A stretch of DNA of 64,000 nt from positions 21,774 through 85,773 of IMG/VR virus record IMGVR_UViG_3300042924_003416, one strand, 5' to 3'. The notes under the pieces were generated by a model. The model was not told where the DNA came from. It did not search any database and saw only the letters and a list, made by a program, of their open reading frames with translations. Every line of letters begins with the position of its first letter. Within the stretch, counting starts at the first letter, position 1. This DNA comes from a virus. Shown in pieces: positions 2,571 to 44,250 of this stretch. Position numbers and translations under genes: made by a program.

Positions 2571-2572
2571 TC

Positions 2573-7032: not shown

Positions 7033-7075
7033 TTGATTAAATTAAAATTTAGTATATTAGTATATAACACATCTT

Positions 7076-12127: not shown

Positions 12128-12135
12128 CAATACCA

Positions 12136-18865: not shown

Positions 18866-21800
18866 ATGGCAGAAGAAACAATAGGTGGTGCTGAAAATTT
18901 AGAAAGTCAACCATCTGCTTTTGATCAATTACTAGCAAAAAGTGATATGTTAAATCCAGCAAGGATTGAACAACCTATGGCTCCAAAAGTTAATTGGCAA
19001 GATAACTTTGTTAACCCAACTAATTATATAAAAGATAATACTGCAGGTGTATCTCCTAACTATCCTCCTTCAGAAGTAAAAGCTGCACAAAGAAGTGGTG
19101 CAATGGGTGGTAGTTTTGAAGCAATCCTAGATAAAGGGATGGCTAAAATTAATGGTATGTCTGACGTAGGTTCATATGCAGAACCTTATGCATATGATAC
19201 ATCTCCTAAAGGTACATTTAGAGATAGATACAAAGGATATGGTCAAGAAACATTTAATAAAATTGGATTTCATCCACTTATAGATAATGAAACTTGGTTT
19301 AATCAGAATACTACATTTGGTGATGATTTAAAAAGATGGTCAACTAATTCTCTTTGGCCAATGGTTTCTAAAGGATTTATGGATCCTATTAAATCATATC
19401 AAAGTATAATGAATGGTGATGGTCTTTTCAATGCAGATGAACAAAGTGCAAGAGACTATGAATATTATAATGCAATTGGTGCATCAACTAAAGGTGGTCT
19501 AGGTGGGTTTACTGTAAACTTACTTAACTCTGCATCTTATTCTATGGGTATCTTACTTGAAGGTGCTGTAGAAGGAGCACTAATTGGAGGAATGTTTAGT
19601 GGTGGTAATCCAACTGCTGGTGCATTAGAAGGAGGTGCTGCATTTGCAAGAAAGTTAGGTAGTTTACCTAAGTCATTAATAGATGCTACAAAAGCAACTG
19701 GTAAGTTACTTTCTAGTGTAAAAAATTATTCCAACTTAGCAAAAGCAAAAGAACTATATAAATCTGCCGGCTCAAGTTTTGGAAATTTTATAAATCCATT
19801 ACATAATACATTTGAAGCATATCATCAATTAAAAAATACTGATAACATAACAAACCTTGCAAGAAGTTCTGCTACTGCAGGAGCACTTTGGCATGATATG
19901 ATGTCTATGAACCTAGCACTTTCAGAAGGTAAACTTGAAGGTGGTTTTACAAGATATCAAGGATATGATAAATTATATAATGAATTTATGGCTGATCCTA
20001 AGAATGGGGGTAAACCTCCTTCATTAGAAGAGCAAGAGTCAATGATGAGACAGGCATCTAAAGGTGCATGGTTAAATACTACTCTTAACACAGGCCTTAT
20101 ATTTCTTAGTAATAAAATAGCATTCCCATCTATTACAAATGCAAGTTTTCTAAAAGGAGTTCCTAAGTTTGCTTTTGGTAAAGTTGTTGGTAATGTTGGA
20201 AAAGAGTATCAAATATTATTTGATCCTGGTAAAAAAGCTTTAGAAGGTGTATTTGCAAAACAAAAAATAAGTTTTGGAAATGCAATTAAATCATTAGCAA
20301 AACCAGCAACATATGGTAAAGTAGGTTTAAACTATTTTAAAGCCAATGTTGTTGAAGGTGGTCAAGAAGTTTCTCAAGATGTATTACAAGAAGCAGTTCA
20401 AGATTATTATGTTCAATCTTATAAAAATAAAGATGCAAGAAATTATAGATACGGTGCTGGTTTATTAGGTAGTGCAATCAGTAAACAATGGAACACTCAA
20501 GGTCTTGAAACATTTCTTTCTGGTTTTTTAATGGGTAGTATATTACAAGCTCCTGGAAAAATTAAGAGTTATGCAACAATGGGGTATAATGATTACTTTA
20601 AAAAAGATGCAAGTTATCAAGAATATATAAAAGGTAGAGAACAAGTTGCTGATGATGTAGTAAATGAATTAAACACCATGTACAAAAGTGGTGATTATTT
20701 TTTTGATCCAAGAATTAATAACTATGCTAATCAAGCACTAGCTGCTAATGTAGTAGATGATCCAGATAGTCATACTACAAAAGAAATAAAAGATACTGAA
20801 TTTGCTGCTTTCCAATCAGCTGTACTTGGTTCATTACAAAGAGGAACATTTGATATGTTCTTAAATCATTATAAGGGTTATAAACAAGCAACTCCAGAAG
20901 ATATTGAACAAGCATGGAATTTAAAACCAGGTGAAGGTGTAAAAGCATTAGAAAGATTTGACAAAGCAATAGAAAATGCAGAAAAAATCCGTGATAGATG
21001 GAACACTGCAAAAGACAAAATGAAATTCATGGCAAATCTTGATGACTATGAAGAAGGTAGTGATGAGTATAAGATAGCTGAAATTTATAACAAAGCATAT
21101 AATCAGTCTTTATATAATTATGTTTTCTTACATAACTCATATGATGACAATGTCAATAGATTAGGTAAGCTGTATCAAAATCTTTCTTCTTTATCTGTAA
21201 TAAAAAATTCTACTTTCTCTGACTTTGTGGGGTTAGTTGATTCTAACAGACTGTCTCAAGAAATTGAAATGCTTAAAACAGAAGTAGAAAGTTTAGAAAG
21301 TTTTGGAACAACAGAAGCACTTACTGAAGCTGCAAGAAAAAGAGGATTATCTGAATTGTATTCAAAATTTCAAGAGAAACAAGAGGAACTTGTAGATTTG
21401 TTTGTAAACAAAAGTTTCCTTGACAATATTGTTAATGAAATAAAACAAGAAGATCCAGATCTTACTGATAATCAGGCTACTATAAAAGCAATTAATAAAG
21501 TAGTTGATGATTATGATCAAGGTAAAAGTAATGAGTTCATAGAATATAAAGAAGCATTTTCTGAATTACTTTATGGAATGGCTGAGACTCCTGAAAAGAA
21601 ACTAAAACTTGAGGAGGAAATACAAAATGTTGGTGGTATTGATGTTCTATTTGATGAACTTTTAGATACACATATTCTTAAAAATGAAAATGCAAGATTA
21701 ATTCAATATGTTAATACACTTGCAAATCCAAGAGAGTTCTATGAACACTTGATGAGAAACTTTAAGTTTATGAAAGACCTCTATGATAATAGAGAGGAAA

Positions 21801-24800
21801 CCATAAAGGAAATTGTAAATGGAGAAATTGAAGCAATTGAGAACAATACTTTATTAAATACATTAGCTGATCAAGGTATATACATTGATCTAGAGGAGTT
21901 TGCTAAGTGGGTTGAAAATAAAAGATACTTACCTGAAGAATTTTTTGATGTTAAAAATAAAAGAGTTATTACTAAAGGTTCTGTACTTTATCAAGACATA
22001 CTAGATATCTTTTTTAGAGCAGCACAACTTGCTGAAAAAAAACCGGCAGGTGATCCTTTAACTCAGAAACAATTACTTGATAAAAAAATTGAGGATCTTG
22101 AAAATGATAGAGGTATAGCTTTACAAAAAGAATTTGATAAGTATGTTGAAGCTTTTAAGAAAAGATATGGATTTACTCCAGAAGAATATGAAGCACAAGA
22201 AGAAGCAAGAGTTGCAGAAGAAGAAATTAGTGAAGAAGATAGAAAAGAAGCAGAAAGTTTAAAAAAGTTTCTTGAAAATGCTGCAGAAAAACTACAGTCA
22301 GATAATTATATTGAAGTACAAGCAGCAGCTGAAGCTGTTGTAGAGAGGATATTTGATAAAGAAGGAGAAAGAGCTCCAGAAGAGTTCTTTCAAGAACAAG
22401 TTGAAATTTATGAAAATGATCCTGAAAAAAATGCAGTAATCAGAGAACTGATTAAAAAGTTTGATAGTGAAGACATAGCTGATAATGTTGATGCAGCATT
22501 AAAATCTCAAATCTATGGAGAGGCTGTTGCTACTGCACTTAATTTAATAAATGAAACACTTAGTAAAACACCTGCAGCACCTACAATAGATGTAGAGAAT
22601 ACCAAAGAATACCTTGCATATCAAGAAGCAATTCAAGCTATCAATGATAAGTTTGATGCTCTTATTTCTGAGGTAAAAGAAACTTTTAGACAAAAAGGAG
22701 TAGATGAAAATACTCCAGATGAATATACTACTAAAACTGATTTTGAAGACTTTGATTTACCTTATCAAGAAGAAATAACAAATCTATTTGATCAGTATTT
22801 AGTAGATATATTAGGTGAGTCAATTGATATTAAAACCAAAGATCCTCTTGAATATGAAAGATTAAGAACAAACTGGTTGGAACAACAAACACCTTTGATT
22901 GCAAAGTTTAATCAACAAGCAAAAGAAATTGCTTTAGAAAAAGCAAGAAAACTTGCTGAACCACCTCAATTAAAATTTATTCCTGATCTTAAAATTAATG
23001 CTCAAACTACTACATATACTATAGCTTCTTTAATAAATAGATTTAAAAAGTTTTTAGAAAATGGAGAATATACTGATCCTAAGAGTAAAAAATTAATACA
23101 GTTAACTCCTGAAGATATTCAAAATATTAATGATGATATAGAATCATTAAATGGATATCTTAATGCAAGAGTAGCTGTAGCTGCACCAAGAAATATTGCA
23201 GAACAAACTATTGACATTATTCAAGAGTATGTGATTAACAAACAAAGTGAACTTGTTGATTTACTTGATGAAGACGGCAATGTAATAGGTAGAACTTTTA
23301 AAGACAGAGGTCCTGGAGATCCTGTTCCTGATCGTACTACTCAAGTAGCAGAAGAAATAGAGAATAGTTTAAAGGACAAAGATTCATTTGAGTATAGTCC
23401 AATTAAACCTCAAGTAGATGAAGAAGGGAATGTTTCACTTTCTCCTGTTGAAAGATTGTATAATCAGTTTTTTAAAGATCCTGAAATTGTCCCTGAAGAT
23501 CGTATTAGACTATTCATGGATGCATTTAAGAGAGAAGCATTTAGAGGTTGGAAAGAATTTAGATATCCTGAAAAACTTGAGGCAGTTGAAAATTCATTAA
23601 AGACTGTTGGTACATATGATGACTTAAGAAAAACTATAAGTAAATATGCATTTAAAGAATCAGCAGATGCTGGTGATTATGTTGATGGACTAATTAGAAT
23701 ATTCTTAACTCCTAATGCAGCTACAGCATCTAACTTTAGTGAGTTTACTCATGATTCTACTGTACAAATTAAAGGTCGTGATATTAAGGTATCAGATATA
23801 ATGTCTAGAAAAGCATTTGACAAATTGTTTTCTCCTGTTACTCCAACAAGTCCAGGTGGTATTATTACTAAGTTTAGACTAGGTATTGTAGATGGAACAT
23901 ACATGATTCTTTCTGAAAACGTAAAATTATTTGACAAGTCTTTAAGAAATGGTAAAGGTGTTACAGGTGAGGTAGATTTACTTCTTGTTAGAGAAGATGG
24001 TTCAGTAGCTATTGTAGATATTAAAACTAAATCTCTTAAAGAAAGAAAAGGTAAATTAGTTAGTGGTTGGAAAGACTTTGGTAATCCAGATGCTAAATAT
24101 GAAAGTTCAACATACTTTAGAGCTCAACAATCTATATACGGATATCAGTTTTATAATAATACAGCTATTACTCCTGATCTTAAACTAATGCCATTTGATA
24201 TGTTGCTTAGTAAAGAGAAGATAGGTTATATAGAAGATATAGATTTAGCAGAGATTCTTGAAGATGGTAAAGATACTATTGACTTAGAATACTTACCAGA
24301 GATAGAAAACTTTGGTATTCAAAAGATAACTCCAGAGATCAAAGCTCCAATTAAAAGAGAAGAAGTAGAAGCTAAAGTTGAAGAAGGTCTTCCTGAATCA
24401 GATCCTACAATGAACACATTAAAAGACAACTTAAACAAAGCTGTAATCTATAATGGTCGTTCAGGTAAACTAGTAAGAATGCCTGATGGTGGATTTGGTG
24501 TTGAAGTAATAACAAATGATGATATAACTACATTACAACTTACATTAGATACATTACAAGCCAATCTTGATATAGAAAAACAATATGGTTCAGAAGAATC
24601 TATTGCTGAATTAGAAAGAGATATCAAAAGAATATCTGATGCTATTGAATCTAATAAAGGTATTACAGAAATATTTCCATTACAAGAAAATCTAAATAAA
24701 GTTACTAATGGAGATGTTTCTTTTGATAAAGTGGGTCTTCAACTTGTAATACCAATTGATAAAGTAGGTCAGTTATCAACTGTTAAAGGCCAAGTCATTA

Positions 24801-26338
24801 ATGCATCTTTCTCTAATAAAGAAGAAACAATAGCTAGTATTAATGGTGTTAGATATGATGTATTACGTGATGCTTCAGGAAATATAACTACTCTTAGTTA
24901 TATGATTAATGATCAAGCAATTAGTAAACTAAACAAAGAAATCAAAGATATAAATGATAAGATTACTAAGTTACGTAATAATCAAGCTGTAGAAGAAACA
25001 GATGGAACAGTAAGTCGGAATTATAAACAAGATTCAATTATAACACGTATTGCTGATTTACAAAATCAAGTAAGAACTCTTACTGGTAAAAAGACATTTC
25101 TTTCAGAAACTAATAAGAAGATGTATTTATATGGTGAGAATGCTAATGATTATATATTTGCATTAAACAGATTACCTAATAACTTTCAAAGATTAACTAA
25201 AGAAAATACAAAAGCTCAAGAAACTCAAGATCTTAAATCTATTAGTAACTTATCATTGAGTACAGCTATTGCAGATACTATTACTGAAATACTATCAGAA
25301 AACTATCCTGCAGAATTAGATATGTTATTTGATGGTACTTTTGATTACAAGTTTAAAGCTAAACCAAAAATCAACAAGTGGATAGATACATCTATTGAAA
25401 AATTATATGCACTAGGTTATACTGTTATAAACAGAGGTGATCTAGTTGATGATATACAAAATCAAATTAATGCTTTGTTAGAATTAAAAAATGATCTAAC
25501 ATTAATTAAATTAACAAGAGAACGTAAAATTAAAAATTATGCAGAAGTCAGAAAAATCTTTACAGAAGGACAACGAGTACAGGAAGGGACTAGTGTACCT
25601 AAGAATGAAAGGACTACCAGAGGAAAAACAGAAGGAGTTCCTAGACAAGCTACAAGAGAGGAACTTAAAGACCTTGTCAAACAAGCAAGAGAAGAAATCT
25701 TAACTGATGTTTTTGATGAACCAGTAGTATTTGAAGAAGTAGGTACTCTTAGTGAAGCTATGTTAAACGATATAGGTACTATAGAAAATATAGCTAAATT
25801 AAATACTATAGAATTAATCTATCAAAAAGCATTTTTAGAGGCACAAGAAAGAGGAGAGGATGCAACTGAACTTACTAAATCATATAAGAAAAGATTGCAA
25901 GAATTAAAAACAATTAATGCTGTTTCAAATGTAGAAATTGGAGAGTATCTTATCAGTAAAAATCCTATCTTTACAGATATTTCTGGAGAAATAGTACAAG
26001 TAGTAGATATTTTTGATATATATGAAGAAGAAGTTGCTTATCCTCCAGGAACTCAAAGTACTGTTACTTTAAAGAATATTAAAACCGGAGAAGTTAAAGA
26101 ATTTACAGACGCATTCTTTGCAGAAAATTTTGAAAAAACAACTATGGAAGCAACACAACCAGAACCAGAAGTAGAATTAACACCAGTAGATATAGAAGAT
26201 TCTAAAGAGTCAAAAGATACTATTGATGATTTAATTAAAAATGGACAAGATGCTATTGCTGAAGCTAAAGAAAAAGCAAAAACATCAGATAGTCAATCAA
26301 GATGGAATAAATTAGGAAACAACTCAAAATTTTGTTAA
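18866..26338 (+). CDS. Giant multidomain protein with embedded PD-(D/E)XK nuclease domain, 2490 aa
   Basis: This is the first of three adjacent giant proteins of the virion transcription block. Residues about 100-560 contain Gly-rich apolar stretches (around ILLEGAVEGALIGGMFSGG), which could be membrane-active. Residues about 600-1500 are Glu/Lys-rich and helical. A restriction-endonuclease-like core is visible at residues about 1690-1760: GEVDLLL with D1704, then AIVDIKTKS with D1718 and K1720, then YFRAQQSIYGYQ, as in RecB/Cas4-type nucleases. It could process host or phage DNA at entry. The C-terminal part is again helical and acidic and ends NNSKFC. The next gene starts after a single base. 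The nuclease call is from motif spacing. The rest I cannot assign. It may form part of the virion RNA polymerase complex. Confidence 0.7.
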   Translation: MAEETIGGAENLESQPSAFDQLLAKSDMLNPARIEQPMAPKVNWQDNFVNPTNYIKDNTAGVSPNYPPSEVKAAQRSGAMGGSFEAILDKGMAKINGMSDVGSYAEPYAYDTSPKGTFRDRYKGYGQETFNKIGFHPLIDNETWFNQNTTFGDDLKRWSTNSLWPMVSKGFMDPIKSYQSIMNGDGLFNADEQSARDYEYYNAIGASTKGGLGGFTVNLLNSASYSMGILLEGAVEGALIGGMFSGGNPTAGALEGGAAFARKLGSLPKSLIDATKATGKLLSSVKNYSNLAKAKELYKSAGSSFGNFINPLHNTFEAYHQLKNTDNITNLARSSATAGALWHDMMSMNLALSEGKLEGGFTRYQGYDKLYNEFMADPKNGGKPPSLEEQESMMRQASKGAWLNTTLNTGLIFLSNKIAFPSITNASFLKGVPKFAFGKVVGNVGKEYQILFDPGKKALEGVFAKQKISFGNAIKSLAKPATYGKVGLNYFKANVVEGGQEVSQDVLQEAVQDYYVQSYKNKDARNYRYGAGLLGSAISKQWNTQGLETFLSGFLMGSILQAPGKIKSYATMGYNDYFKKDASYQEYIKGREQVADDVVNELNTMYKSGDYFFDPRINNYANQALAANVVDDPDSHTTKEIKDTEFAAFQSAVLGSLQRGTFDMFLNHYKGYKQATPEDIEQAWNLKPGEGVKALERFDKAIENAEKIRDRWNTAKDKMKFMANLDDYEEGSDEYKIAEIYNKAYNQSLYNYVFLHNSYDDNVNRLGKLYQNLSSLSVIKNSTFSDFVGLVDSNRLSQEIEMLKTEVESLESFGTTEALTEAARKRGLSELYSKFQEKQEELVDLFVNKSFLDNIVNEIKQEDPDLTDNQATIKAINKVVDDYDQGKSNEFIEYKEAFSELLYGMAETPEKKLKLEEEIQNVGGIDVLFDELLDTHILKNENARLIQYVNTLANPREFYEHLMRNFKFMKDLYDNREETIKEIVNGEIEAIENNTLLNTLADQGIYIDLEEFAKWVENKRYLPEEFFDVKNKRVITKGSVLYQDILDIFFRAAQLAEKKPAGDPLTQKQLLDKKIEDLENDRGIALQKEFDKYVEAFKKRYGFTPEEYEAQEEARVAEEEISEEDRKEAESLKKFLENAAEKLQSDNYIEVQAAAEAVVERIFDKEGERAPEEFFQEQVEIYENDPEKNAVIRELIKKFDSEDIADNVDAALKSQIYGEAVATALNLINETLSKTPAAPTIDVENTKEYLAYQEAIQAINDKFDALISEVKETFRQKGVDENTPDEYTTKTDFEDFDLPYQEEITNLFDQYLVDILGESIDIKTKDPLEYERLRTNWLEQQTPLIAKFNQQAKEIALEKARKLAEPPQLKFIPDLKINAQTTTYTIASLINRFKKFLENGEYTDPKSKKLIQLTPEDIQNINDDIESLNGYLNARVAVAAPRNIAEQTIDIIQEYVINKQSELVDLLDEDGNVIGRTFKDRGPGDPVPDRTTQVAEEIENSLKDKDSFEYSPIKPQVDEEGNVSLSPVERLYNQFFKDPEIVPEDRIRLFMDAFKREAFRGWKEFRYPEKLEAVENSLKTVGTYDDLRKTISKYAFKESADAGDYVDGLIRIFLTPNAATASNFSEFTHDSTVQIKGRDIKVSDIMSRKAFDKLFSPVTPTSPGGIITKFRLGIVDGTYMILSENVKLFDKSLRNGKGVTGEVDLLLVREDGSVAIVDIKTKSLKERKGKLVSGWKDFGNPDAKYESSTYFRAQQSIYGYQFYNNTAITPDLKLMPFDMLLSKEKIGYIEDIDLAEILEDGKDTIDLEYLPEIENFGIQKITPEIKAPIKREEVEAKVEEGLPESDPTMNTLKDNLNKAVIYNGRSGKLVRMPDGGFGVEVITNDDITTLQLTLDTLQANLDIEKQYGSEESIAELERDIKRISDAIESNKGITEIFPLQENLNKVTNGDVSFDKVGLQLVIPIDKVGQLSTVKGQVINASFSNKEETIASINGVRYDVLRDASGNITTLSYMINDQAISKLNKEIKDINDKITKLRNNQAVEETDGTVSRNYKQDSIITRIADLQNQVRTLTGKKTFLSETNKKMYLYGENANDYIFALNRLPNNFQRLTKENTKAQETQDLKSISNLSLSTAIADTITEILSENYPAELDMLFDGTFDYKFKAKPKINKWIDTSIEKLYALGYTVINRGDLVDDIQNQINALLELKNDLTLIKLTRERKIKNYAEVRKIFTEGQRVQEGTSVPKNERTTRGKTEGVPRQATREELKDLVKQAREEILTDVFDEPVVFEEVGTLSEAMLNDIGTIENIAKLNTIELIYQKAFLEAQERGEDATELTKSYKKRLQELKTINAVSNVEIGEYLISKNPIFTDISGEIVQVVDIFDIYEEEVAYPPGTQSTVTLKNIKTGEVKEFTDAFFAENFEKTTMEATQPEPEVELTPVDIEDSKESKDTIDDLIKNGQDAIAEAKEKAKTSDSQSRWNKLGNNSKFC

Positions 26339-26339
26339 A

Positions 26340-35300: not shown

Positions 35301-36494
35301 TCATTTTCTGTAAGATTGTCTAAGTTGATACAAAACTATCCTGAACTAGCTAAAAATTATCCTATTATAGGTAAATTAAAACTTGATTCAACTAAAGAGA
35401 ATGATGCATTTAATATATTACTTGCTGATAAAGACTTTGATAATGATAAATCAAATCTTTATACACAAGATTTAAAAAAACTTTCTGATAGAACAGTTGT
35501 AAAATTAACTGACCCAGAAGAAAATGCTAGACTAAGTGACATGTTTAAATACTTAAACACTTTTGCTTTTTTACAAACCGGATTAAACAAGACTAAGTTA
35601 AGCTTTACTAATGTAGTGGACTATACAGACTTTTTATCTATTGTAGAAGGTGAGTCTAGTAAGTTTATTGAAGCTTTAAATAAAAAAGGATTTACACTTT
35701 TAGATAATTTCTATGATCAATTCATAAGAGAGAATAATAAAAAAATTAGTCCAAATAGAGATCGATTTAAAGATTATTTATCTACTATTGATTATGAAAA
35801 TGTAGAAAGAATACTTCCTGTAGAAAATCCTACTATAAAGAAAGATAGAAATGCTGAATCAGATGTAGAAGAAGTTATTTTAGATTCTACTAATCAAGAT
35901 ACAATAGCTGAAGTAAAAAGATTTAATCTTAAGAATACAGATGATCCTAATGTTTATACTTACAATGATAAGAATGCTACAAATGCAACTTACTATTTAA
36001 ATCTTGGTAAAAATAATCCTGATGTTGTCTTTGTACATAACATAAGTATTTATGAAATTAAACCGGAACAAATTGCTGCAGGTAGAAATCTTGGAGGTTC
36101 TGCTTACTTTATGACAGAAGTAGGAGATATGTCAGTTAATTTCCCAACTGATTTATTTGCAAGTGTTGTTAATGGTAGAAAGATAGACATTGCATCAGAT
36201 CAATATCAAACACTTAAAAATATTTGGGAGAAAAGAATTAATATACTTAAACAAATTCAAGAAAAAGGTGGTAAACTTGCATTTCCTGAGTATGGTTTTG
36301 GTGATCCTAACACCATGCCTCAAGAATTATTCGTATATTTAAGTAAGAGATTGTTTGAAGAGTTTGGATATATCAATCCTGGTTCTACAAAATATAACCA
36401 GGTAAGAGAAATGATAATAAAAACTCAAGGAATCTCTGATGAAGAAATAGAAATGCAATTAGAATTAGAAGAAGACCCTTTTAAATGTTCATAA
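26340..36494 (+). CDS. Giant virion RNA polymerase with zincin protease domain, 3384 aa
   Basis: This is the probable phage DNA-dependent RNA polymerase. At residues 2305-2349 it has RIPVQGLNS, NIIVPPAEIVAKSGG and DFDIDKL. The order and spacing resemble the R-x-P...S...N-A-DFDGD region of multisubunit polymerase beta-prime, and DFDID (D2344, D2346, D2348) fits the DxDxD metal-binding motif of crAss-like virion polymerases. An HEAWH zincin site (H837, E838, H841) with downstream acidic DLAEEF (E880/E881) marks a metallopeptidase domain that could cleave this or neighbouring proteins. A Lys/Pro-rich linker lies around residues 620-660. The protein ends DPFKCS and the next gene starts after one base. 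It presumably enters the cell with the DNA and transcribes early genes. At 3384 residues it is much longer than single-chain phage polymerases. Confidence 0.8.
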   Translation: MACKLDKDQVLDLYEALYGEVADRLKDSSLPPVDLNQLVQSAYAVVKLNSEDQVKAMLYAQAVPDVFHLVTQDTEVNDYLVDNNFDFTGLAKMRKQFADLAEVGKTVATKKKSKDEIDSEIKDTNKTKKDFVPKIDIDNETLWSYNEYNGAKVTSAWTTSIQIAYSENPEEVSEEDRNKIDPEKILFSDVIKAISQISKDRVGTEDIQYQGKTIALTAQLTRSVPKELLVQNDRDHLEKYPNTNGVIAILTDEKGNNLYFKPDGSLTDNPSEGRIVYQYLRRVNLVDGKLLLSNRSNRLYNLVDPVKIAERQRDQIVEAKGEVTETQFKQLVKDIAARQEKELNDLYQLRTLLESSEQNLQLTLPITGGTFGIPTTSVKTVTLEEAGVTETDLKSYTPITTGEKKGLQYIIVNKQKAGGLTVSQQLFLQRSDIDPELADKIATILTTTVELKGRQLSPDERKSYFEIFINNARAKKSNTNRDRIQAKVLTINNQKTLVVEINGKKIDDAILYTEEGKQMILNHLLAARPKKVSKGKEEGSNGYWPANVQYNNKYRNTTFTDYTIEDGKIISTSRKYFDVIKPYVKITYTDEVLAQEKGINAYLNYVIPEGTIEYEGYIPVGRPKPKAEPEKKTKKDKEETKKAPKKQARTKPVTTGASKEVSAYEISMKKQIKDAGGKVEGYKTRMKVADLAEAVGLTEKQITEFRSIALEATADTKTTVKPEPLTAPEVKEVNIQSNPSTRITLVDDIINGSSNSAFYKRDKLNRDKLRNKFLDKVFTSKSDRAAAEKWWNNSPLSKFISLERITEVVNSDAFATWSGYGITLYEADGGTSVDLYHEAWHGFSQLLLTKDEKVKLYEEIQSLPKYKGKSFFDIEEDLAEEFRGYAKSKGKKATRGFLGKIFDKIYQFIQKLFGKTTKKEVATKLQDIESVKELFDKLYRASENPEILSNLKPSMDNVMFGKLNRSKVINDNFTLEESKEIADAIDSMMAVIFQNYNRDFNTTSAALKLLKDPENKKDLYKDIYDRFERLRIKYAEEAEKNIDLIIDPQFSKEFELLIKITDNFGNLTDSLSGKEKNNVIAYHLEKSRYKVLADEYDEIEDPSNIEKSYLFRLNEGGNTVSSKELASQETMMLLASIFDVTRENGEIIYNRDGLFGLPKLQDITITWNRLAKILEGSFDEIDMYVRIFENSENYPELQQLQTLLPNPFFTIESAMGMYNPLEFEAETNFWQDFKKPRVPFIQLNLNKEEIKSKDVLVRAFEARVAKANFDVYQVIQDWKNNFTTADSTVNPYVSKHSKLGYNILNTGKIVKDFGVNGVFNYKKADEFLRAIGIVLDPSSAAIRSIINSTSEPFGTTFGVDRMYEVIKKVNKSTSPDAFQFKRDPLTYFINGLPTSLRDNEEESEEVRGRIRALAEIQNAFSDSYSNFSVQTPEGNRVWEHMVDNTITRIVTAINHAESWEELTTDEGDPARRFQHMRWLNEKNNTFSPFSKLLNSIFDLDPMSDTYGQKITDTKILLQHVAGTQMVSKRNEGGTSTAAMDATSKFLQEFHTMLLSGVEEFMRHASKNTSMGMTLDGEVKTYNGKKASKLYIDVESFLEYADGEIKGYDIVEGYIAAEANRIVRFQQGIDKFKNYAGYNRKVKRKDNKKTPVMAGQAFTAFDDILSQDLQADLYSILDAASENPLTDFDLMKELDNNPEIRNRIRKDVAQYFNLETNKNLARLQKAKYVDNGLMERIRVTNEDLTDKDIERALMKAYTYNSFIHKMETVILAYGDLAQYNHAKEEFHKRNAGLGSGGRGFRADKRAQIYLSSLKNYYADRQGYETRNYDGTLVTAIMKEMTFNSVMYNEYRDAIEEATYERTKDRKKAKQIADTAASEYFGSNKPQMKIADGQGFITMEYYRILKKAEGNWSDQQELLYRKISMGENITAENVVEFFPPYKLQYFGNIQSEGLPVNSFHKFSLAPLIPGVWKSGTPIYDLHEKMMKDQVDYVLFESGSKVSHIGNGDNMLNEDGSLNKKAEFTKNIVYAEFLKNQTEINSTYKQKSIFSTQLRKLILEGLYAQGSIKSTKYKDITNTRVKKYIDHVEEYTELLKLELLEEMGYEETSPGEYKAKDKSSTAKLINIIRTNLEREDLLSDNLIEFIDVYDNSGDLVHDLSFHPEAAKIEKLLLSMINKRIIKQKVAGEPLVQVSVGLTANQFSKPDLKKATKDEIKKWASTTYTLPTYHRKSNGYTAAAKVMIAMQGTYYNLFNLEYDNDETVGVYDESGVLNMDESLARLNEKIKDDKWLDANNEANRKAITLVGVRIPVQGLNSMEFAEVFEFLPPQAGNIIVPPAEIVAKSGGDFDIDKLTIFMNTLDEDGKVIERQYKDNNDIKKLRGTDEFENAVKAQKAGLENELIQDIKNILELPENYASLIMPNGTFILKEIAEKLSADVMEYNPKENRMTDDTGEISPTRVLESLYNVYKHESNIVGKKTLGLGAIENTFNVIMNTIGAYMPDTYVIKEVTRKSNMRLRHNKMERRGKEVISMSDLYDVDGTNKISDVISQMINGWVDVEKDAWIFFIQGNYEVAPTLLYLIKAGVPVKEAIYFVSNPLVREYVDEQRLAKSTFADVLNKKPDGPGLAKYKAASEVIKKYFTKDELAGNSKNDDRYLKGQELLEDYFKDKKQKHFTEENMLNLIQTDDRKSNMAKAMFLHYLELEQQIAGYTALKMASNPDTATKSTLSDVEQTEANIENLFFDPRVPLEIVEAMMEDSILKSFFNGPLALAVSRPLFKLRYHKEISEYLIARKGQINNDLQTTFPGQNIEMFSNIFRNDLVSFILQNAIRKYKKQDGFMSLDMETTIPVSMAKELKRGAFVKNGTLYMDMKQIKKEFKDSAWVRNSEVENSYKDRELYELDPSTFMNHYGANFDEYLKFVAEREYIRYIKPLNTEFTNSFEFQEELDSTKELFPDLTNEKAVRYTYEKLIAIKALDNSYNFFHLFRDDDNSFSVRLSKLIQNYPELAKNYPIIGKLKLDSTKENDAFNILLADKDFDNDKSNLYTQDLKKLSDRTVVKLTDPEENARLSDMFKYLNTFAFLQTGLNKTKLSFTNVVDYTDFLSIVEGESSKFIEALNKKGFTLLDNFYDQFIRENNKKISPNRDRFKDYLSTIDYENVERILPVENPTIKKDRNAESDVEEVILDSTNQDTIAEVKRFNLKNTDDPNVYTYNDKNATNATYYLNLGKNNPDVVFVHNISIYEIKPEQIAAGRNLGGSAYFMTEVGDMSVNFPTDLFASVVNGRKIDIASDQYQTLKNIWEKRINILKQIQEKGGKLAFPEYGFGDPNTMPQELFVYLSKRLFEEFGYINPGSTKYNQVREMIIKTQGISDEEIEMQLELEEDPFKCS

Positions 36495-36495
36495 T

Positions 36496-39400
36496 ATGGT
36501 TTGCCAAGTACAATTAAATTCAATAAAGTTTTTAGAAAAAAATGGAGCTACAGATGATATAAGAAGAATTATCAATGAAGATCTGTTTAATAAATTAAAT
36601 GATAGCCTTACTGATAAGGCAGAAAGAATATATGGTCTTGAAACTAATGGTAGTAAACTTTTTAGTGTAAATACTTCTGAACATATTGATCCATATAGAT
36701 CAACCTACTGGAGAGATGCTAAGGTTAGAGTACTAAGAGCTGAACCTAATGTAAAACTTTTTGAAAGACTTCAGGAACTTTTTAATGCACGTAATGACAA
36801 ACCGATGTTTATGAAAGCTCCAGAAGTGGATTATTCATTAAAGATTGTTAATGCTTTAAATAAAATTAATAGAAATAAATTTGAATCTTCAAAATTACAA
36901 GGTTGGTTAAATGATCTTCAGAAACAAGGAGTATCTGCTCAACAATTAGAACTTTTTAAAGAAGTAGCTAAACCAGGTATGACTAAAGATGAAATAGCTG
37001 CTGCTATTGCTGCTACTTATAGTTATACTATTGAGATTAATACTGCTAAAACACCAAAAGTAGGTGAAAAATTTTTAGATAGAGAATATGGTTATGAATT
37101 AGAAGTGACAGAAGAAACTTTACAAAATCAAATTAATGATGGTTTTGTAGATAATAATTTAAATACTCAATATTATTCTAATCTAACAGTTCCCGGAGGT
37201 ACTAACTATACAGAACAAGAAATAGCTACACCAGCAATTACACCAAGTATTAAAGGACATGCTCAGTTTGCTACAGATAAAGGTATAGGTTGGTTTAGAA
37301 GTGATGAGCAATCTATTAAAGAAACTGGTCCTATTAAATATTTTGTAGAAAATGCATTTGAAGATATACAATCTGAGTTATTTACTAATATAGAAGAAGC
37401 TAAAAAATTACAAAAAAAATGGTCACAAGATTATCCTGAATTAAAATTTGAAATAGTAAAATCTTCAACATATATTTCTATATTATCAAAAACCCGTAGA
37501 GTACTAGAAGTACAATCTGATTTGTTTCAGAAAGGTAGAGATAGAGAAAATTTAATAGAAGATAAAAACATGTCTTCTAACATAACAGATTCTAATAAAG
37601 AAGAATTTGAAGTTGCAAAAAGATTAGGAATTGAAGAAGAAGATGAAGAAGGAAATTTATCATATACTTATAAAGGTGTAAATTATTTTCAAGACATCTT
37701 TACAGATAACTATTTAAAATATGGATTACCTAGTTCTAATACAAAAGGAAACCAATTCCTACAACTACTAAACAAAGACAATAACTGGATTAATTTCTTT
37801 ACTAAGTCTATTATACAAGATAGTGCTAAGAAAGGATATGAAAAAGTATTGTTTCCTTCTGGTAATACAGCTAGTAAAGTAGAAGGACACACTACTTTAG
37901 AAGAGTTTAAAAAACAAAAAGAGGATAGAATTAGATTTTTAGATGGTGAAATTAATGACCCTGAAAATATAGAAAGAAGAATTGAAGAAGCTAAAAAAGA
38001 AAAAGAACAGGTTAAACAAGAACTTGAAAGAGTAGAGAGAGAAGGTTTTGGTGCTTTAAAACCTATCTATAACTTCTATGAAAATACTGTAACTAATATT
38101 CTTAAAAAACAAGGCTATAGTCCTAAAAAAATTACAGATGAGTATGGTAATACTTGGAATGAAATTACTATAGATCAAACAAGAGATACATCTCCTATAG
38201 CTTTTATGAGAGAAAATGTAAACCCTGCTCTTCAAGAGATCAACGGAGTTCTTTTTATGGATGTAAATCTAGATCAATTACAAGATCAAAGATCAAAAGA
38301 AATTGCTGAAGTACTTGCTCAAAGATTATCACTTAGTACTAATACACAGTTTAGAAATGTATCAGCTGAAGAGGCTGCAAATATTTTAAAGAACCGACCT
38401 GTTAAGTATAACGGAGAACCAGCATTTTACTATGCAGGAACAGTTTATGTAGTAGGAGAAAATATTAATGTGAGGACTGTACTACATGAATTCTCACATC
38501 CGGTCTTGAATGCATTAAGACAGACCAACAACATCCTATTTCAGAATCTCTATAATCAAGCACTTGCTACTGAAGAAGGTCAGGGTATCTATTACTATGT
38601 AGTAAACAACTATCCAGAACTAGAAGAAAACTCAGATCTATTCAAAGAGGAAGTACTTGCTTATGCAATGCAGTTAAAAGCACTCAACAGAATCAACAAT
38701 GACATTGAGACAGAAGGGTATCAAAACTTCATGAATAAACTTCTTGCTGCTATCAAACAACTACTTAGAAAACTATTTGGTAGTAAAATAGATGTAGCTA
38801 AGTTAGATGTAGATACTTCATTAGAGGAGATGGCAGATATGCTCTTGGATAAAGACTTTGAATTCAAGACAGATAGAATAAATGAAGAAGACCTTGCAAT
38901 GTTTTCCAGGGAAGTTGTTGAAAGGGCTCGTGAACTAAACAAGTTTTCTAATAAGGAGTCTATGCAGAAAGTTGTTAAAAGTACTTTTGAAACAACTAGA
39001 AGAGTACTCTCTGAAGCTGAAGGATTTAAAGGAGATAAAGCATCTAGAAAATTATTAAGAGAATCTTTATTTGAAAAAGGTACTAATAGATACATCCGTG
39101 AAGTCTTAAGAACATTAAGAGACAACTTAGATAGTAATATTGAAGACCAAGCTCAAAATCAACTCATACAAAATGCATTAGATACTGCTAGAGAAGAAAT
39201 GGATGTGGATTTAGAAAGAGCAACGGCACTGGTAAATTCATTGGATACAATCAATAGCATGACTAAGAACATGTTATTAGATATATCTAAACTTAGTGGA
39301 ACTAATATCAATAACAGAAGTACTATTGCACTATTGATGCTTTACAAATCTAATTCAAAAGCCTGGTTAAAAATGGTTCAAGAAATAGATGAGGCATTGA

Positions 39401-42400
39401 CATCTGAAGGTGGTTTTGTGGATACTAATAATCCTTTCTATAAAACTTTAAATGAAATAGTATTAAACATCACAAGAGTCAATACTAACATTGCAAATAT
39501 TCTTAAGAATAACAATGTTCAGTTTTATGTAGAGATTACGGGATACATGTCCAAGTATGTTCAAGATAGACTTAAGGGTAACTTAGGTATAGCACTGAAA
39601 CAAACTTTTCCAACAGAACAATTAGAACGTGAGGTAAATGACCTATATGACAAAGTAGTTCAACAAAAACTTACTGAAGATGATATAGATGCATTGGTAA
39701 AGAAAGGTGTTCCTGAAAATGTTCTAACAGGCTTTTTAAAAGAATATAAAGAACTTGTTGTTGATGAAGATAAAATCAAAGCTGCTCTTACTGGAGGAGC
39801 TCATGATGTTACTTGGTTTAATAGATGGTTGGAAAGTTATAGCTCTAGTAATGATGTTATAGTGGGACCATTAGCAATGTTTATTCAAAATGAAAAGACC
39901 CAGGTACAGAATCTTGTTTGGGAACAGTCTATGAAGTTTAGAAATAAACTTGAGAAACTTTTACCTAAAGTAGGATTTAGTAAACTTAATTCCGTTGCAA
40001 TGAGAGAGAGAATGGGATTTAAGGATAAAATATTCTACATGGATAAGAAGACAGGAAAACCTGTTGAAAAAGAAATTTGGAGTTATTTAGGTGCATTTAA
40101 AGATTATAGATATCACTATGATTTATTAGACTATAACTTAGAAGAAGCAAAGAAAACTGAAGATGTCAATAAAATTGCTCAAGCTCAGATGGAGTTTGAT
40201 GAATTCAAAAGAGACTACATGTGGCAGGAGTTTGTTCCTGAGTTCTATGAGAAAGATGATATCTTTAAACAGTCTGAGGTAGGTCAATTAGCATACTATG
40301 TAAGGAAACAAAAACTGCAGGCTTTTAATAACTTGGTTAACTCCATGGAAAATGAGCTTGAAAGATTTGAGAAGTACTCAACTATACAAGCTGCATTTAG
40401 AGAGTTCCAACAGTTATATTCTCTTACCTATGAAGATGGTACTCCTAAAATTGATGATCCGGCCAGAGGTGTTTATGATTTAAGTATTGCAAAAGTATTG
40501 CAAGAACATAGAGCAGCTACAAAAGGGTTCTACGAATGGAGACCAATTGAGGGTATGTTACAAAGTGCTTACAATGAATTTATAGATTTACTTGCAACAA
40601 AACAAATTTTTCCTGGATCCGGAGAATTTAAAAGAGAACTTGAAAAATGGAGAAGACAAAACCTTAGAATGGAGTATAACCAAGAATATTGGGACTCTAG
40701 AGTTGCTTTAACAACTGAACTAAGGGAACTTCAAGCAAAAATGAATGAAGTTGCAAATTCTAGATTTGATGTTGCTGCAGCATTTCAAACCATAAATGAC
40801 TTAATATATAGCTATCGGGATGAACAAGGTGAACCTGATAGTAATGCAATGGGTAAAACAAGACTTGAAAGAATTAAAGATGCAGAACAAGCTATTGCAG
40901 ACTTTAAGTTTCAGTATGATATATCCACAGGTCTTTCTAAAGAAGATTCTGAGGAGTTAAAAAATCTACAGTATAAAGCAAGAAAAGGTTTACTACAAGC
41001 TGGTTCTCCAGAATCTAAAAGATATTTCTATCTATTAGAACTGCAAGAAAAAGAAGGTATTAATCCTGCAGATGCAGCAAGAATTCAAGAGATATTTACT
41101 GAGTTATCACAATTAACTGAAAATCTTCCTACTGTATATTACATAGAGACATTAAACTATAATCTCTCTAAACAAAATATAAAAGAAGTTGATGAAGATG
41201 ACGTTGATAATTTTATAAATTCAGATGAGTTCCAAGACATGCTGGATGCTGATGAAGGATTTAAAGAATGGTTTAATCTTAATCATTATACAATAAATGT
41301 ATATGATGAAAAATCAAGAAGTTACATACCTAGATATAAAAGAACAAAAGCAAATACTGTTGCTATACCAAAAGATTCTTCTCAAATAAAATATACTAGA
41401 ATATTAAATAGAGAAGGTAATGAGGTTTTACTTATGGGTGCTCCTAATGCTAGACACTCTAGATATGAAGTAAAAGATCAGTATAGAACTATTCCTTTTG
41501 GAGCTGCTAAAGAAGATTATGTAGGTAAGTTTATTGATAATAAAAATCAATGGCTACCAAGGATGTATCAACCTGGACAAAAATATAGTGCTAAGGATAA
41601 CAGGTTCATGAATGAAAGATACTTTCAGATGCAAGCTAGTAATTCTGCAGAGTTTCAACTATTAGAAGCCATTAAAGAATATCATCTACAGAATCAGAAA
41701 GGTATGAGTAACTATAGTAAACTCTATCTTGATATGCCTAGATATGCTCTTAGAAAAGGGGACATTTATCAGTCATTACAAAAAGCAAATTATGGTTCTA
41801 GGTTTTCTGAAATAGGAAGTAATATTCAAGAGTGGACTAAGCAGTTAATTGGTAGATCAGTTACTGATTCTGAAAGAACTTCAGATAAGTATTCTATTTC
41901 TAATGAAAATAATTATGATCCAAATAATAACTTAGTTAATACAGATCTTGACGGTAATCAAATTACTTATGTTCCTGTATCAGGTATTTATAATCTTGAT
42001 ATAGAAAATCAAGATGCTGATATCTTCCAGGGATTATTTAAATATGCATTAAGTATTCAGACACAAGGAAAACTTTTAGAGAGTTTACCTCTTGTTAACT
42101 CTATACTAGATACATTAGAAGATCCTGACAATGCTCCAAAAGATTTAGAAAAATTTGATAAGAATATTTATAGTCTAAAAGGGGCCCTAACTTTTGCAAA
42201 GAAAAAATTCTCAACTAATAACCGTCTTGGTCAGGTTAAATCTCTTATTGAAAGAGAGTACTATGGTAAGATGGTTGAAGGTATAGAGGAAACTCATCCA
42301 CAATTTGGTAAATGGATAAATGGATTACAAGGTTTATCTGCTAGAGGTTCATTAGCTATCAATCTACCTTCTGACTTAAAAAACAAGTATGGTGCATATG

Positions 42401-43830
42401 TGCAGTTAATCATTGAAGGTAGTGGTGCTGAGTTTATAAATCTTAAAGATATTGCATTAGCAAGACCTTGGGCAGAAAAAGCTATGTTAGAATGGACTAC
42501 AAAAGGTATTTACCAAACAGGTCCAGGAGCTATATCAACTCAACTTGTTCAGATTTTTGATCCTAACTTTAAGTCTAAAGATGAGTTTGGTAGAGAGATA
42601 GAAAGATCTATGTTAAAAGATCTTGCCAATATGGAATGGTTATACATGCATAGAAAATTTGGTGAGATGCAAGTTGCAATGTCTTTATTTGGAGCTTTTA
42701 TGTATGGTCAAAAAGTAGAACAAGTTATGAGTGATGGTTCTAAAAAGACTTTAAGATATATTGAAGCTTGGGAAAAAGATGATGAAGGTATCATTAGATT
42801 AAAACCTGGTATACATCCTGGTTGGAGTAATCTTCCTGTATATCATGAATATACTAAAGGTGAAAGTCTTGAAAGTATTGCTAAGAAATACTACATTCCT
42901 TTAGAAGAACTAAAAGCTAAAAATAGAATTAAGTCTGAAGTACAACTTGAAGATGGTCAAGAACTTATTATATCTAAGTCAGAGTTATTTATGGGATTGA
43001 AAAATAGAATTCAAGGTACGTCTCGTAAATTATTTGGTACTTATGATGAAATGGGACAGCCTGAAGGTAATAAGTTACTTCTCTATAGAATGTTCTTCTT
43101 TATGAGAAAATGGTTTACTCCTATGTTGATGAATAGATTTGGATTTGATTCTAAAACTATTGGTTGGACACGAGGTGGTGAAAGATATGATTGGGCAACT
43201 ACATCTTATGGAAAAGGTTTTTATATTACAGCATTCCAAGCAATGTTGAAAACAATGAAATCTGGATTTAGAAACTATAACTATCTTACTGATCAAGAAA
43301 AAACTGCAGTAAGAAAACTTTCTGCTGAAGCATTCTTTGCAATTGGTCTTGCTCTAATTGGTCTAATGGTGTTTGGATTTGATCCAGATGATGATGACAA
43401 ATGGAAAAAACTAAGAGCTAAGTCTGGTGCAATGGGTCAAGATTCATTTAACACATATGGTTTTATGTCAAATCACATGTTACTTTTGATGATGGGTGTA
43501 CAAGCAGAAACTTCGGCTTTTGTACCACTACCTTCTATGAAAGGAGTAAATTTTGGTGCAGATGATTATGTAAAGATGCTAACACAAACAACAAGTGCAT
43601 GGTATAACACTGTAGTACTTTATATTGATATCTTTGGAGATGCATTAGATTTTGTAACATTCTCTGAAATGGATAGATATAAACGTGATACAGGTCCATA
43701 TTCATGGAAAGAAGAAGGAGATTTAAAATTATGGAGTAAATTAGGAAAAGCAATAGGGTTCACTGGTTCTACTGGAGATCCAGTAACATCATTTGAAAAT
43801 CAATTTAAAAGTCAATCTAAAGGAAATTAA
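36496..43830 (+). CDS. Giant polyvalent protein: zincin peptidase, LysM and membrane segment, 2444 aa
   Basis: Domains in order: a GGTNYTE...TDKGIGWFRSDEQ...FEDIQSE...AKKGYEKVLFPSG region (residues about 234-460) resembling the conserved domain of phage and conjugative-element polyvalent proteins whose hallmark is EiQSD, here IQSE; a coiled-coil Lys/Glu stretch (about 475-515); an HEFSH zincin site (H664, E665, H668) with downstream LFKEEVLAYA (E718/E719); a long helical region; a LysM-like repeat (about 2119-2160, YTKGESLESIAKKYYIPLEE); and an apolar segment AFFAIGLALIGLMVFGF (about 2280-2296), probably membrane-spanning. LysM and membrane segments suit a protein that crosses the cell envelope. 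It may belong to the virion transcription complex with the previous two genes. It ends three bases before a small basic gene. Confidence 0.7.
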   Translation: MVCQVQLNSIKFLEKNGATDDIRRIINEDLFNKLNDSLTDKAERIYGLETNGSKLFSVNTSEHIDPYRSTYWRDAKVRVLRAEPNVKLFERLQELFNARNDKPMFMKAPEVDYSLKIVNALNKINRNKFESSKLQGWLNDLQKQGVSAQQLELFKEVAKPGMTKDEIAAAIAATYSYTIEINTAKTPKVGEKFLDREYGYELEVTEETLQNQINDGFVDNNLNTQYYSNLTVPGGTNYTEQEIATPAITPSIKGHAQFATDKGIGWFRSDEQSIKETGPIKYFVENAFEDIQSELFTNIEEAKKLQKKWSQDYPELKFEIVKSSTYISILSKTRRVLEVQSDLFQKGRDRENLIEDKNMSSNITDSNKEEFEVAKRLGIEEEDEEGNLSYTYKGVNYFQDIFTDNYLKYGLPSSNTKGNQFLQLLNKDNNWINFFTKSIIQDSAKKGYEKVLFPSGNTASKVEGHTTLEEFKKQKEDRIRFLDGEINDPENIERRIEEAKKEKEQVKQELERVEREGFGALKPIYNFYENTVTNILKKQGYSPKKITDEYGNTWNEITIDQTRDTSPIAFMRENVNPALQEINGVLFMDVNLDQLQDQRSKEIAEVLAQRLSLSTNTQFRNVSAEEAANILKNRPVKYNGEPAFYYAGTVYVVGENINVRTVLHEFSHPVLNALRQTNNILFQNLYNQALATEEGQGIYYYVVNNYPELEENSDLFKEEVLAYAMQLKALNRINNDIETEGYQNFMNKLLAAIKQLLRKLFGSKIDVAKLDVDTSLEEMADMLLDKDFEFKTDRINEEDLAMFSREVVERARELNKFSNKESMQKVVKSTFETTRRVLSEAEGFKGDKASRKLLRESLFEKGTNRYIREVLRTLRDNLDSNIEDQAQNQLIQNALDTAREEMDVDLERATALVNSLDTINSMTKNMLLDISKLSGTNINNRSTIALLMLYKSNSKAWLKMVQEIDEALTSEGGFVDTNNPFYKTLNEIVLNITRVNTNIANILKNNNVQFYVEITGYMSKYVQDRLKGNLGIALKQTFPTEQLEREVNDLYDKVVQQKLTEDDIDALVKKGVPENVLTGFLKEYKELVVDEDKIKAALTGGAHDVTWFNRWLESYSSSNDVIVGPLAMFIQNEKTQVQNLVWEQSMKFRNKLEKLLPKVGFSKLNSVAMRERMGFKDKIFYMDKKTGKPVEKEIWSYLGAFKDYRYHYDLLDYNLEEAKKTEDVNKIAQAQMEFDEFKRDYMWQEFVPEFYEKDDIFKQSEVGQLAYYVRKQKLQAFNNLVNSMENELERFEKYSTIQAAFREFQQLYSLTYEDGTPKIDDPARGVYDLSIAKVLQEHRAATKGFYEWRPIEGMLQSAYNEFIDLLATKQIFPGSGEFKRELEKWRRQNLRMEYNQEYWDSRVALTTELRELQAKMNEVANSRFDVAAAFQTINDLIYSYRDEQGEPDSNAMGKTRLERIKDAEQAIADFKFQYDISTGLSKEDSEELKNLQYKARKGLLQAGSPESKRYFYLLELQEKEGINPADAARIQEIFTELSQLTENLPTVYYIETLNYNLSKQNIKEVDEDDVDNFINSDEFQDMLDADEGFKEWFNLNHYTINVYDEKSRSYIPRYKRTKANTVAIPKDSSQIKYTRILNREGNEVLLMGAPNARHSRYEVKDQYRTIPFGAAKEDYVGKFIDNKNQWLPRMYQPGQKYSAKDNRFMNERYFQMQASNSAEFQLLEAIKEYHLQNQKGMSNYSKLYLDMPRYALRKGDIYQSLQKANYGSRFSEIGSNIQEWTKQLIGRSVTDSERTSDKYSISNENNYDPNNNLVNTDLDGNQITYVPVSGIYNLDIENQDADIFQGLFKYALSIQTQGKLLESLPLVNSILDTLEDPDNAPKDLEKFDKNIYSLKGALTFAKKKFSTNNRLGQVKSLIEREYYGKMVEGIEETHPQFGKWINGLQGLSARGSLAINLPSDLKNKYGAYVQLIIEGSGAEFINLKDIALARPWAEKAMLEWTTKGIYQTGPGAISTQLVQIFDPNFKSKDEFGREIERSMLKDLANMEWLYMHRKFGEMQVAMSLFGAFMYGQKVEQVMSDGSKKTLRYIEAWEKDDEGIIRLKPGIHPGWSNLPVYHEYTKGESLESIAKKYYIPLEELKAKNRIKSEVQLEDGQELIISKSELFMGLKNRIQGTSRKLFGTYDEMGQPEGNKLLLYRMFFFMRKWFTPMLMNRFGFDSKTIGWTRGGERYDWATTSYGKGFYITAFQAMLKTMKSGFRNYNYLTDQEKTAVRKLSAEAFFAIGLALIGLMVFGFDPDDDDKWKKLRAKSGAMGQDSFNTYGFMSNHMLLLMMGVQAETSAFVPLPSMKGVNFGADDYVKMLTQTTSAWYNTVVLYIDIFGDALDFVTFSEMDRYKRDTGPYSWKEEGDLKLWSKLGKAIGFTGSTGDPVTSFENQFKSQSKGN

Positions 43831-43973: not shown

Positions 43974-44006
43974 AAAAAAAGAGGAGAACCTTTTACAGTT
44001 CTCCTC
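43972..44006 (-). terminator. Intrinsic terminator at the convergent junction
   Basis: A perfect 9-base-pair stem (GAGGAGAAC / GTTCTCCTC, 43981-43989 with 43998-44006) with an 8-base loop is followed, read on the minus strand, by nine T residues. It ends the rightmost minus-strand operon. The stop codon of the 43993 gene lies in the loop, so the last codons form the stem. On the plus strand only a weak T-rich tail follows, so it may work partly in both directions. Confidence 0.8.
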
Positions 44007-44250
44007 CTTCATTTTCATAGAAGTCTAAGACTTCATATTTGTCTTTAAAGTGTATTACTTTAAAGTTATTTTCTTTAAAATCATATCTTACAACAGACAG
44101 TGTACTTAATGCTTTGTGAAAAGAACATGCTTTACACACAATACATTTACCCTTTGCACTTTTTATTTGATACTTTCTGGTGTTATCCTTAAATTTTTCT
44201 AATGGCTTTTCTACACCACAATTAAAACATCTAAGAGTCTCCATCTTCAT
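43993..44250 (-). CDS. Small zinc-ribbon-like protein, about 85 aa
   Basis: Two CxxC pairs (CFNCG near the N-terminus and CIVCKAC about 28 residues later) indicate a zinc-binding ribbon or finger. The rest is Lys/Glu-rich, with FKDKYEVLDFYENEGGEL at the end. Longer in-frame starts exist at 44274, but the ATGs at 44250 or 44244 place the Cys pair close to the N-terminus and reduce overlap with the upstream gene, whose stop is at 44231. The role is unknown; small zinc proteins in phage early regions often bind nucleic acid or host proteins. Confidence 0.6.
   Translation of the reverse strand: MKMETLRCFNCGVEKPLEKFKDNTRKYQIKSAKGKCIVCKACSFHKALSTLSVVRYDFKENNFKVIHFKDKYEVLDFYENEGGEL

Follow-up and report, generated by a model that had tools for sequence, protein, structure and literature searches.

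Introduction

The crAss-like phages are the most abundant human gut viruses. Their genomes carry a known transcription block, made up of several large multidomain proteins in which PD-(D/E)XK domains occur (PMC7886860), and gp47, gp49 and gp50 of Bacteroides phage crAss001 were detected in virions as cargo by mass spectrometry; by the masses given there these three add up to about 694 kDa (PMC10172136). On MS/MS evidence, the products gp076-078 of Cellulophaga phage phi14:2 carry the annotation of structural proteins, and the gp077 sequence is letter for letter that of PDB 6VR4 chain A, a DNA-dependent RNA polymerase. Tail constrictions of less than 50 angstrom require partial unfolding of the cargo, and present models of crAss cargo ejection have separate, partly unfolded chains (PMC10172136). 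Disulfides join tail and portal-vertex proteins of crAss001, and no cargo disulfides were reported for this phage, though most of the cargo is unresolved there (PMC10172136). N4-like phages as a rule have their virion polymerase fused to zincins, and the 2017 survey of polyvalent proteins that describes this does not mention crAss phages (PMC5512222). Among crAss-like phages, the public record of ctcc615 includes an entry called "putative RNAP associated protein fused to zincin protease".

Here we describe three giant genes of an environmental virus that are the crAss-like transcription gene block in a deep environmental lineage. The set itself is of a known kind with a shifted domain border; the apparently new part of the finding is a rule that places the cysteines of these proteins at the chain ends that face one another.

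Gene layout and surroundings

The window, the whole stretch of DNA that was analysed, is 64,000 nt in length and comprises positions 21774-85773 of the 85,773-base record IMGVR_UViG_3300042924_003416. A preliminary description had counted 8318 residues in three genes with one-base gaps, and this was borne out: the ORFs at 18866-26338, 26340-36494 and 36496-43830 (chains A, B and C) are intact and free of internal stops, and a single base lies between the stop codon and the following ATG at both the A-B and the B-C junction. The TAA-N-ATG form of this junction is kept in the clade relatives examined. The block and its neighbors are as follows.

15666-18863, plus strand: cargo-like protein at the C2/gp46 position, 1065 aa, no Cys, placed as crAss001 gp46
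18866-26338, plus strand: chain A, 2490 aa, corresponding to crAss001 gp47 without the zincin, its sole Cys being the last residue
26340-36494, plus strand: chain B, 3384 aa, virion-type RNA polymerase with a fused zincin, only two Cys (3 and 3383)
36496-43830, plus strand: chain C, 2444 aa, candidate counterpart of phi14:2 gp076 and crAss001 gp49, its only Cys being residue 3
43977-44010, no strand assigned: terminator-like bidirectional hairpin that separates the plus strand block from the minus strand replication block

To the left of the block on the same strand lie structural genes matching PHROG virion proteins and an 1851-aa protein at the crAss muzzle position, followed by four giant proteins (P1-P4) and then by the C2-like protein, which is upstream of the block, outside the set proposed to be linked by cysteines, and gave no match above P60 in the profile comparison. 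Beyond the hairpin the opposite strand encodes a DNA polymerase, an exonuclease, an AAA ATPase, a primase and a DnaB-like helicase. Five terminator-like sites were found versus 0.5 expected, all by consensus match only. The placement of the block after the structural genes and opposite the replication genes is the layout of crAss001.

The P1-P4 ORFs fill window positions 1-15609 between the muzzle-like and C2-like genes (P1 to 2570, P2 2573-7018, P3 7076-12127 and P4 12136-15609). They contain repeats of a boundary motif, (GG)x-[LI]-P-x-A-Q-x-G, which in three of these proteins is about 6-9 times as frequent as expected from shuffled sequences. In relatives the motif is kept, and the stretches between its copies are swapped, missing or present in up to five copies; P1-P4 resemble an array of cassettes whose boundary is conserved. 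Left of the window, at record positions 1380-3847 (L002), genes close to the structural ones encode small basic proteins that are rich in Lys and Gly and bear KAQxG or QKGG repeats.

Domains of the three chains

The domains and motifs recognized in the chains are listed below.

23663-24235, plus strand: PD-(D/E)XK nuclease domain, A residues 1600-1790, from hhalign to crAss001 gp47 and invariant residues
28752-29192, plus strand: zincin-like domain, B residues 805-951, with HEAWH at 837-841 and EEDLAEEF at 875
31560-34142, plus strand: RNA polymerase core, B residues 1741-2601, from hhalign to phi14:2 gp077/6VR4 residues 849-1659 and to crAss001 gp50
33369-33383, plus strand: DFDID catalytic metal-binding motif, D2344/D2346/D2348 of B, aligned to SDFDIDK of 6VR4
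38485-38499, plus strand: second zincin-like motif, HEFSH, C residues 664-668, from invariant residues in relatives
42856-42972, plus strand: single LysM domain, C residues 2121-2159, PF01476, E 1.2e-5, above the Pfam cut-off

The nuclease of the preliminary description proved to be in chain A, where the region aligned with residues 1712-1877 of crAss001 gp47 (hhalign, P 95.5). D1704, D1718 and K1720 of A are invariant in eight relatives, and the length of A is constant among close relatives.

The RNA polymerase core was likewise confirmed, in chain B. A profile of B residues 1131-3160 matched phi14:2 gp077 with P 98.7 and E 3e-16 over 722 columns, and crAss001 gp50 with P 97.6 and E 3e-12; the link of B to 6VR4 is made solely through the profile comparison with phi14:2 gp077. 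The gp077 alignment takes in lysines K1940 and K1959 (in YKLQYFG and HKFSLAP) together with the three aspartates of GDFDIDK, and all five residues are invariant in 11 relatives. When part of B was used in tblastn, 100 phage records, mostly of crAss-like phages, were matched at 22-29% identity. For the predicted two double-psi beta-barrels, the conserved lysine region and DxDxD both align, and an AlphaFold model of the core (951 aa, 11 close relatives) had a pLDDT of 39 and was unusable. B gave no Pfam polymerase match and showed no T7-like single-subunit domain of the kind that defines N4-type polymerases. Searches of PDB sequences with the A, B and C profiles returned nothing relevant apart from LysM proteins.

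Two zincins had been proposed, and they fared differently. That of B aligned with the C-terminal zincin of crAss001 gp47 (hhalign, P 86.9), was also found by blastp and gave tblastn matches in 53 crAss-like records. That of C is a motif only: H664, E665 and H668 are invariant in nine relatives, and no independent profile match was obtained for the HEFSH region. The proposed LysM repeat is a LysM domain present as one copy rather than an array; it occurs in nine of nine relatives and was not found in crAss001 gp49 or phi14:2 gp076. The N-terminal 85 residues of C are 34% identical to phi14:2 gp076 (E 9e-7) and a C-terminal stretch matches crAss001 gp49 (E 2e-4); at the sequence level the assignment of C as the gp49 counterpart is weak.

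An apparent split of B into separate zincin and polymerase genes in three relatives (G012, G007 and G013) was considered and rejected, the ORF ends there being contig ends or joins made in the analysis. In G012 a 127-base terminal overlap allows B to read through; hence B is one fused chain throughout the clade. Given the domain matches, A together with the beginning of B is the equivalent of gp47, the remainder of B is that of gp50 and C that of gp49; compared with crAss001, the gene boundary that separates nuclease from zincin is shifted.

Placement of the block

Like the known blocks, A, B and C are large multidomain proteins, one of which has a DxDxD polymerase motif. The window's own record is a fragment that lacks TerL, portal and major capsid protein (MCP) genes, and these tests therefore used relatives, whose portal, TerL and MCP sequences are 23-26% identical to those of crAss001 (E 1e-20 to 1e-23, 1e-14 to 4e-17 and about 1e-6, respectively). 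The top named TerL matches were crAss phages, at about 25% identity. The lineage would thus be a deep branch of Crassvirales or lie beside that order.

Homology indicates that A, B and C are almost certainly the transcription cargo that a deeply branching crAss-like phage packages in its virion, and the behavior of the homologues suggests that they are probably delivered into the host with the DNA. Of the "virion transcription-and-processing set" first described, the transcription part is strongly supported by homology and the processing part is unproven. That the set goes beyond a polymerase alone is true and was already known for crAss-like phages (PMC7886860). The set is real and its kind is not new, zincin and nuclease domains having been described in the block before. 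The features of this clade are the zincin-polymerase fusion, the LysM domain in C and the modules of B and C.

Exchangeable modules in chains B and C

Close relatives, in which B is about 70-79% identical, have insertion hot spots in both B and C, which in the window are the following.

35808-35846, plus strand: insertion hot spot, B residues ~3157-3169, a short linker in the window and NADAR or DUF7831 in relatives
36820-38220, plus strand: unnamed module of ~470 aa, C residues 109-575, optional in the clade and widespread in environmental crAss-like blocks

The B hot spot holds a NADAR domain in G012 (E 2.6e-16) and a DUF7831 domain in G010 (E 2.1e-12), both above the Pfam cut-off, a weaker NADAR match in G009 (E 0.006) and a GNAT-like stretch below the cut-off in G011. 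NADAR domains of phages are typically stand-alone (PMC9503650). The C module is present in the window and in G006 and missing from G003, G005 and G007, and in G009, G012 and G013 a second HExxH region takes its place. It has strongly conserved motifs and was found in about 70 environmental contigs (L045-L114), mostly near the N-terminus of the chain adjoining the polymerase. It matched no Pfam family, and an AlphaFold model made with 50 sequences (pLDDT 66.9, pTM 0.47) had no PDB match at E <= 0.001. It may resemble a domain of other phage polyvalent proteins. Three contigs bearing relatives of the module are filed under a Woesearchaeota MAG (L123), a Patescibacteria bin (L124) and a Neisseriaceae MAG (L125), and these are probably binned phage contigs.

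B has the hallmark of a polyvalent protein, a zincin and a polymerase in one chain, to which relatives add NADAR and DUF7831. The giant chains could be mainly a carrier for exchangeable effector domains, with the polymerase as one payload among many. In favor of this, the hot spots of close relatives are occupied by NADAR, by DUF7831 or by an additional HExxH region, or are empty; against it, neither A nor the polymerase core varies within the clade, and the B hot spot of the window is an empty linker. We regard this as a possible but less likely reading and retain that of a transcription cargo set.

Cysteines at the facing ends of the chains

The replication proteins of this phage have 0.90% cysteine, from which about 75 cysteines would be expected in 8318 residues. 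A, B and C together have exactly four.

26333-26335, plus strand: Cys2490, the C-terminal residue of A, facing the B N-terminus
26346-26348, plus strand: Cys3 of B, facing the A C-terminus
36486-36488, plus strand: Cys3383 of B, penultimate, facing the C N-terminus
36502-36504, plus strand: Cys3 of C, facing the B C-terminus

All four are within three residues of an end that faces the next chain (P about 4e-13 for four randomly placed cysteines landing one each <=3 residues from the four facing ends), and the outer ends, the N-terminus of A and the C-terminus of C, have none. Cysteines at facing ends are found in three named families as well. phi14:2 has the pattern of the window, with a single cysteine in gp078 (the last residue), two in gp077 (residue 3 and the penultimate) and one in gp076 (residue 3). 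In crAss001 the sole cysteine of gp47 is the third residue from its end and that of gp49 is residue 5; gp50 has cysteines at residues 5, 1334 and 2404 of 2412, the first and last of which lie close to its ends.

A wider set of relatives gave 49 distinct adjacent pairs of giant ORFs, which were scored for a cysteine in the final eight residues upstream and the initial eight downstream, with a chance expectation of 0.002 per end; the interior cysteine frequency of these chains is 0.0001-0.0003. The 45 pairs that are block junctions all have a cysteine on both sides. The other four (L093, L096, L102 and L105) lack the pair, and in each an upstream protein, which we infer to be C2, meets a fused giant of 4645-5670 aa with 0-2 cysteines. 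The fused giant of L096 ends in LNFCLNIG and the next chain starts with MKTAMQC. Counted back from the C-terminal end, the cysteine lies anywhere between the last and the ninth residue, and at chain starts it lies between residues 2 and 7.

The pattern follows the number of chains into which the block is cut. A and B are fused in six Suoliviridae (cr50_1, cr118_1, cr55_1, cr113_1, cr60_1 and cr272_1), where the fused chains have no cysteine near the N-terminus and the AB|C cysteine pair is kept; the C chain of cr118_1 (1667 aa) has residue 3 as its sole cysteine. In L088, L097, L108 and L109, C is split again around an ORF of 197-261 aa, and both new ends have a cysteine (IKCS|MACKY). The ORFs at these splits (L088 10627-11412, L097 10763-11356, L108 11188-11862 and L109 10957-11709) have a position that suggests free-standing homing endonucleases. 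The Intestiviridae phage ctcc615 was checked after the rule had been formed: its A chain ends in QSSCR and the next chain starts with MSC, the start of the polymerase chain having been known beforehand and the A chain not. Interior cysteines are not depleted in cr272_1 and ctcc615, and the terminal cysteines are kept there.

There were exceptions. One split piece, in L081, has no C-terminal cysteine, and cr108_1 has an ORF break without cysteine at the DxDxD motif. The polymerase gene of cr108_1 (L130 18180-18471) is broken inside that motif by about 290 bases, a gap more in keeping with an intron than with the end of a chain. Breaks at the DxDxD motif are known in the Zeta group (PMC7886860). 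cr10_1 was ambiguous, the A chain of G005 was taken without its last residues, and cr7_1, cr60_1, cr113_1 and cr272_1 have in-frame stops under the standard code. With these exceptions, the cysteines are almost only at partner-facing ends, absent where chains are fused and present at most new breaks. A search of the literature, the scope of which did not include the phi14:2 structure paper, found no description of this facing-end pattern.

Discussion

A cysteine pair at every junction of chains that are otherwise nearly free of cysteine points to covalent head-to-tail joining. We consider it probable, from the sequence pattern, that the terminal cysteines pair as interchain disulfides, the A C-terminus with the B N-terminus and the B C-terminus with the C N-terminus, to give one covalent thread of 8,318 residues. 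In the mechanism we propose, the A-B-C ends would be joined in this way in the virion and the partly unfolded thread would pass the narrow tail in fixed order, after which reduction in the host cytoplasm would free the polymerase, this passage and release being put forward tentatively. The B polymerase would then transcribe early genes after injection, with A and C as partner chains carrying the nuclease, zincin and LysM domains. The combination of cargo set, disulfide thread and ordered ejection is our best overall explanation and a fairly probable one. Its extension, for which there seems somewhat more to be said than against, is that across crAss-like phages the giant transcription proteins would form a single disulfide-joined thread, stored and ejected as one and separated by host reduction, such that a peptide bond and a cysteine pair would be interchangeable at each junction in evolution. 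If true, this would bear on how several hundred kilodaltons of protein are stored and ejected in order through a narrow tail, show which ends meet in the complex and explain why the block is cut into differing numbers of genes.

As assembly takes place in the reducing cytoplasm, the disulfides would have to form late. The C-terminal cysteine of crAss001 gp50, nine residues from the end, counts against the thread, as do the L081 piece and the cr108_1 break without cysteine, the undepleted interior cysteines of cr272_1 and ctcc615, and the weak sequence link between C and gp49. Thioredoxin-family genes lie near the transcription block in ctcc615 (L127 14396-14665) and cr108_1 (L130 29423-29692); they are not universal and are possibly relevant to disulfide reduction.

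An alternative that we think unlikely is that this is no more than the known Crassvirales block, whose homology and gene order it matches, and that the terminal cysteines do something else in the protein, for instance bind a metal jointly or make a contact by which the folded complex is kept together. The His or Pro-Asn that some N-termini add after the cysteine (MSHCINTSHP, MATCPNKN) could suit a metal. However, a lone cysteine per end provides two ligands per junction, which is few for zinc in chains without other cysteines, and new cysteine pairs at new breaks suit joining better than they would a fixed metal site.

A further reading, in line with the processing first described, is that the zincins are responsible for processing the giant chains, or the cassette proteins encoded upstream, as the virion assembles. 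Zincins of polyvalent proteins, for example that of P1 DdrB, have been proposed to autoprocess (PMC5512222), and the repeated boundary motif of the upstream giants could be a cleavage site. Against this, the N4 virion polymerase with its zincin is packaged unprocessed (PMC5512222), and none of A, B and C contains the boundary motif. Such processing seems quite doubtful, and the upstream motif [KRQE]-A-Q-x-G is only a lead to a putative zincin cleavage site.

Finally, that the cysteine codons are a by-product of a nucleotide termination/re-initiation signal at tight junctions is most improbable, for although the gaps are about -1 to 22 bases and the clade keeps its TAA-N-ATG junctions, the position of the cysteine differs by several codons both before and after the junction, no cysteine occurs at the C2|A junction, which is just as tight, and crAss001 gp47, encoded opposite to gp50 and gp49 with no shared messenger junction, keeps its cysteine, a layout that contradicts a DNA start-stop signal as the cause. 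The disulfide thread is the preferred reading of the cysteine pairs.

Comparison with known systems

The block shares with gp47, gp50 and gp49 of crAss001 the large chains placed after the structural genes, a DxDxD chain, a PD-(D/E)XK domain, a zincin and the facing-end cysteines. In crAss001 the zincin ends gp47, whereas in the window it is near the start of B, the polymerase chain; C exceeds its crAss001 counterpart by about 1100 aa and has a LysM domain and an extra module; and A, B and C are all on one strand, whereas gp47 of crAss001 is opposite gp50 and gp49. In phi14:2, gp077 (6VR4) with gp076 and gp078 forms three adjacent chains in the same order as in the window, and gp077 aligns with B in the polymerase core over 722 columns, the identity in the core being about 27%. 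The phi14:2 chains are shorter than those of the window, and gp077 and gp078 lack HExxH, the motif there being HEIMH in gp076.

The virion RNA polymerases of N4-type phages are likewise giant injected polymerases with a zincin and sometimes further effector domains (PMC5512222). The N4 polymerase is a T7-like single-subunit enzyme, whereas B is placed by its profile matches in the DxDxD lineage of double-psi-barrel enzymes. The polyvalent proteins of phages and conjugative elements have unrelated enzyme domains in one injected chain, in which a zincin is common and modules are swapped (PMC5512222). Unlike the polyvalent proteins surveyed there, the window has its effector domains built onto a crAss-type polymerase block, and the effector hot spots indicate that a crAss-type polymerase carries exchangeable domains as the N4-type polymerases do.
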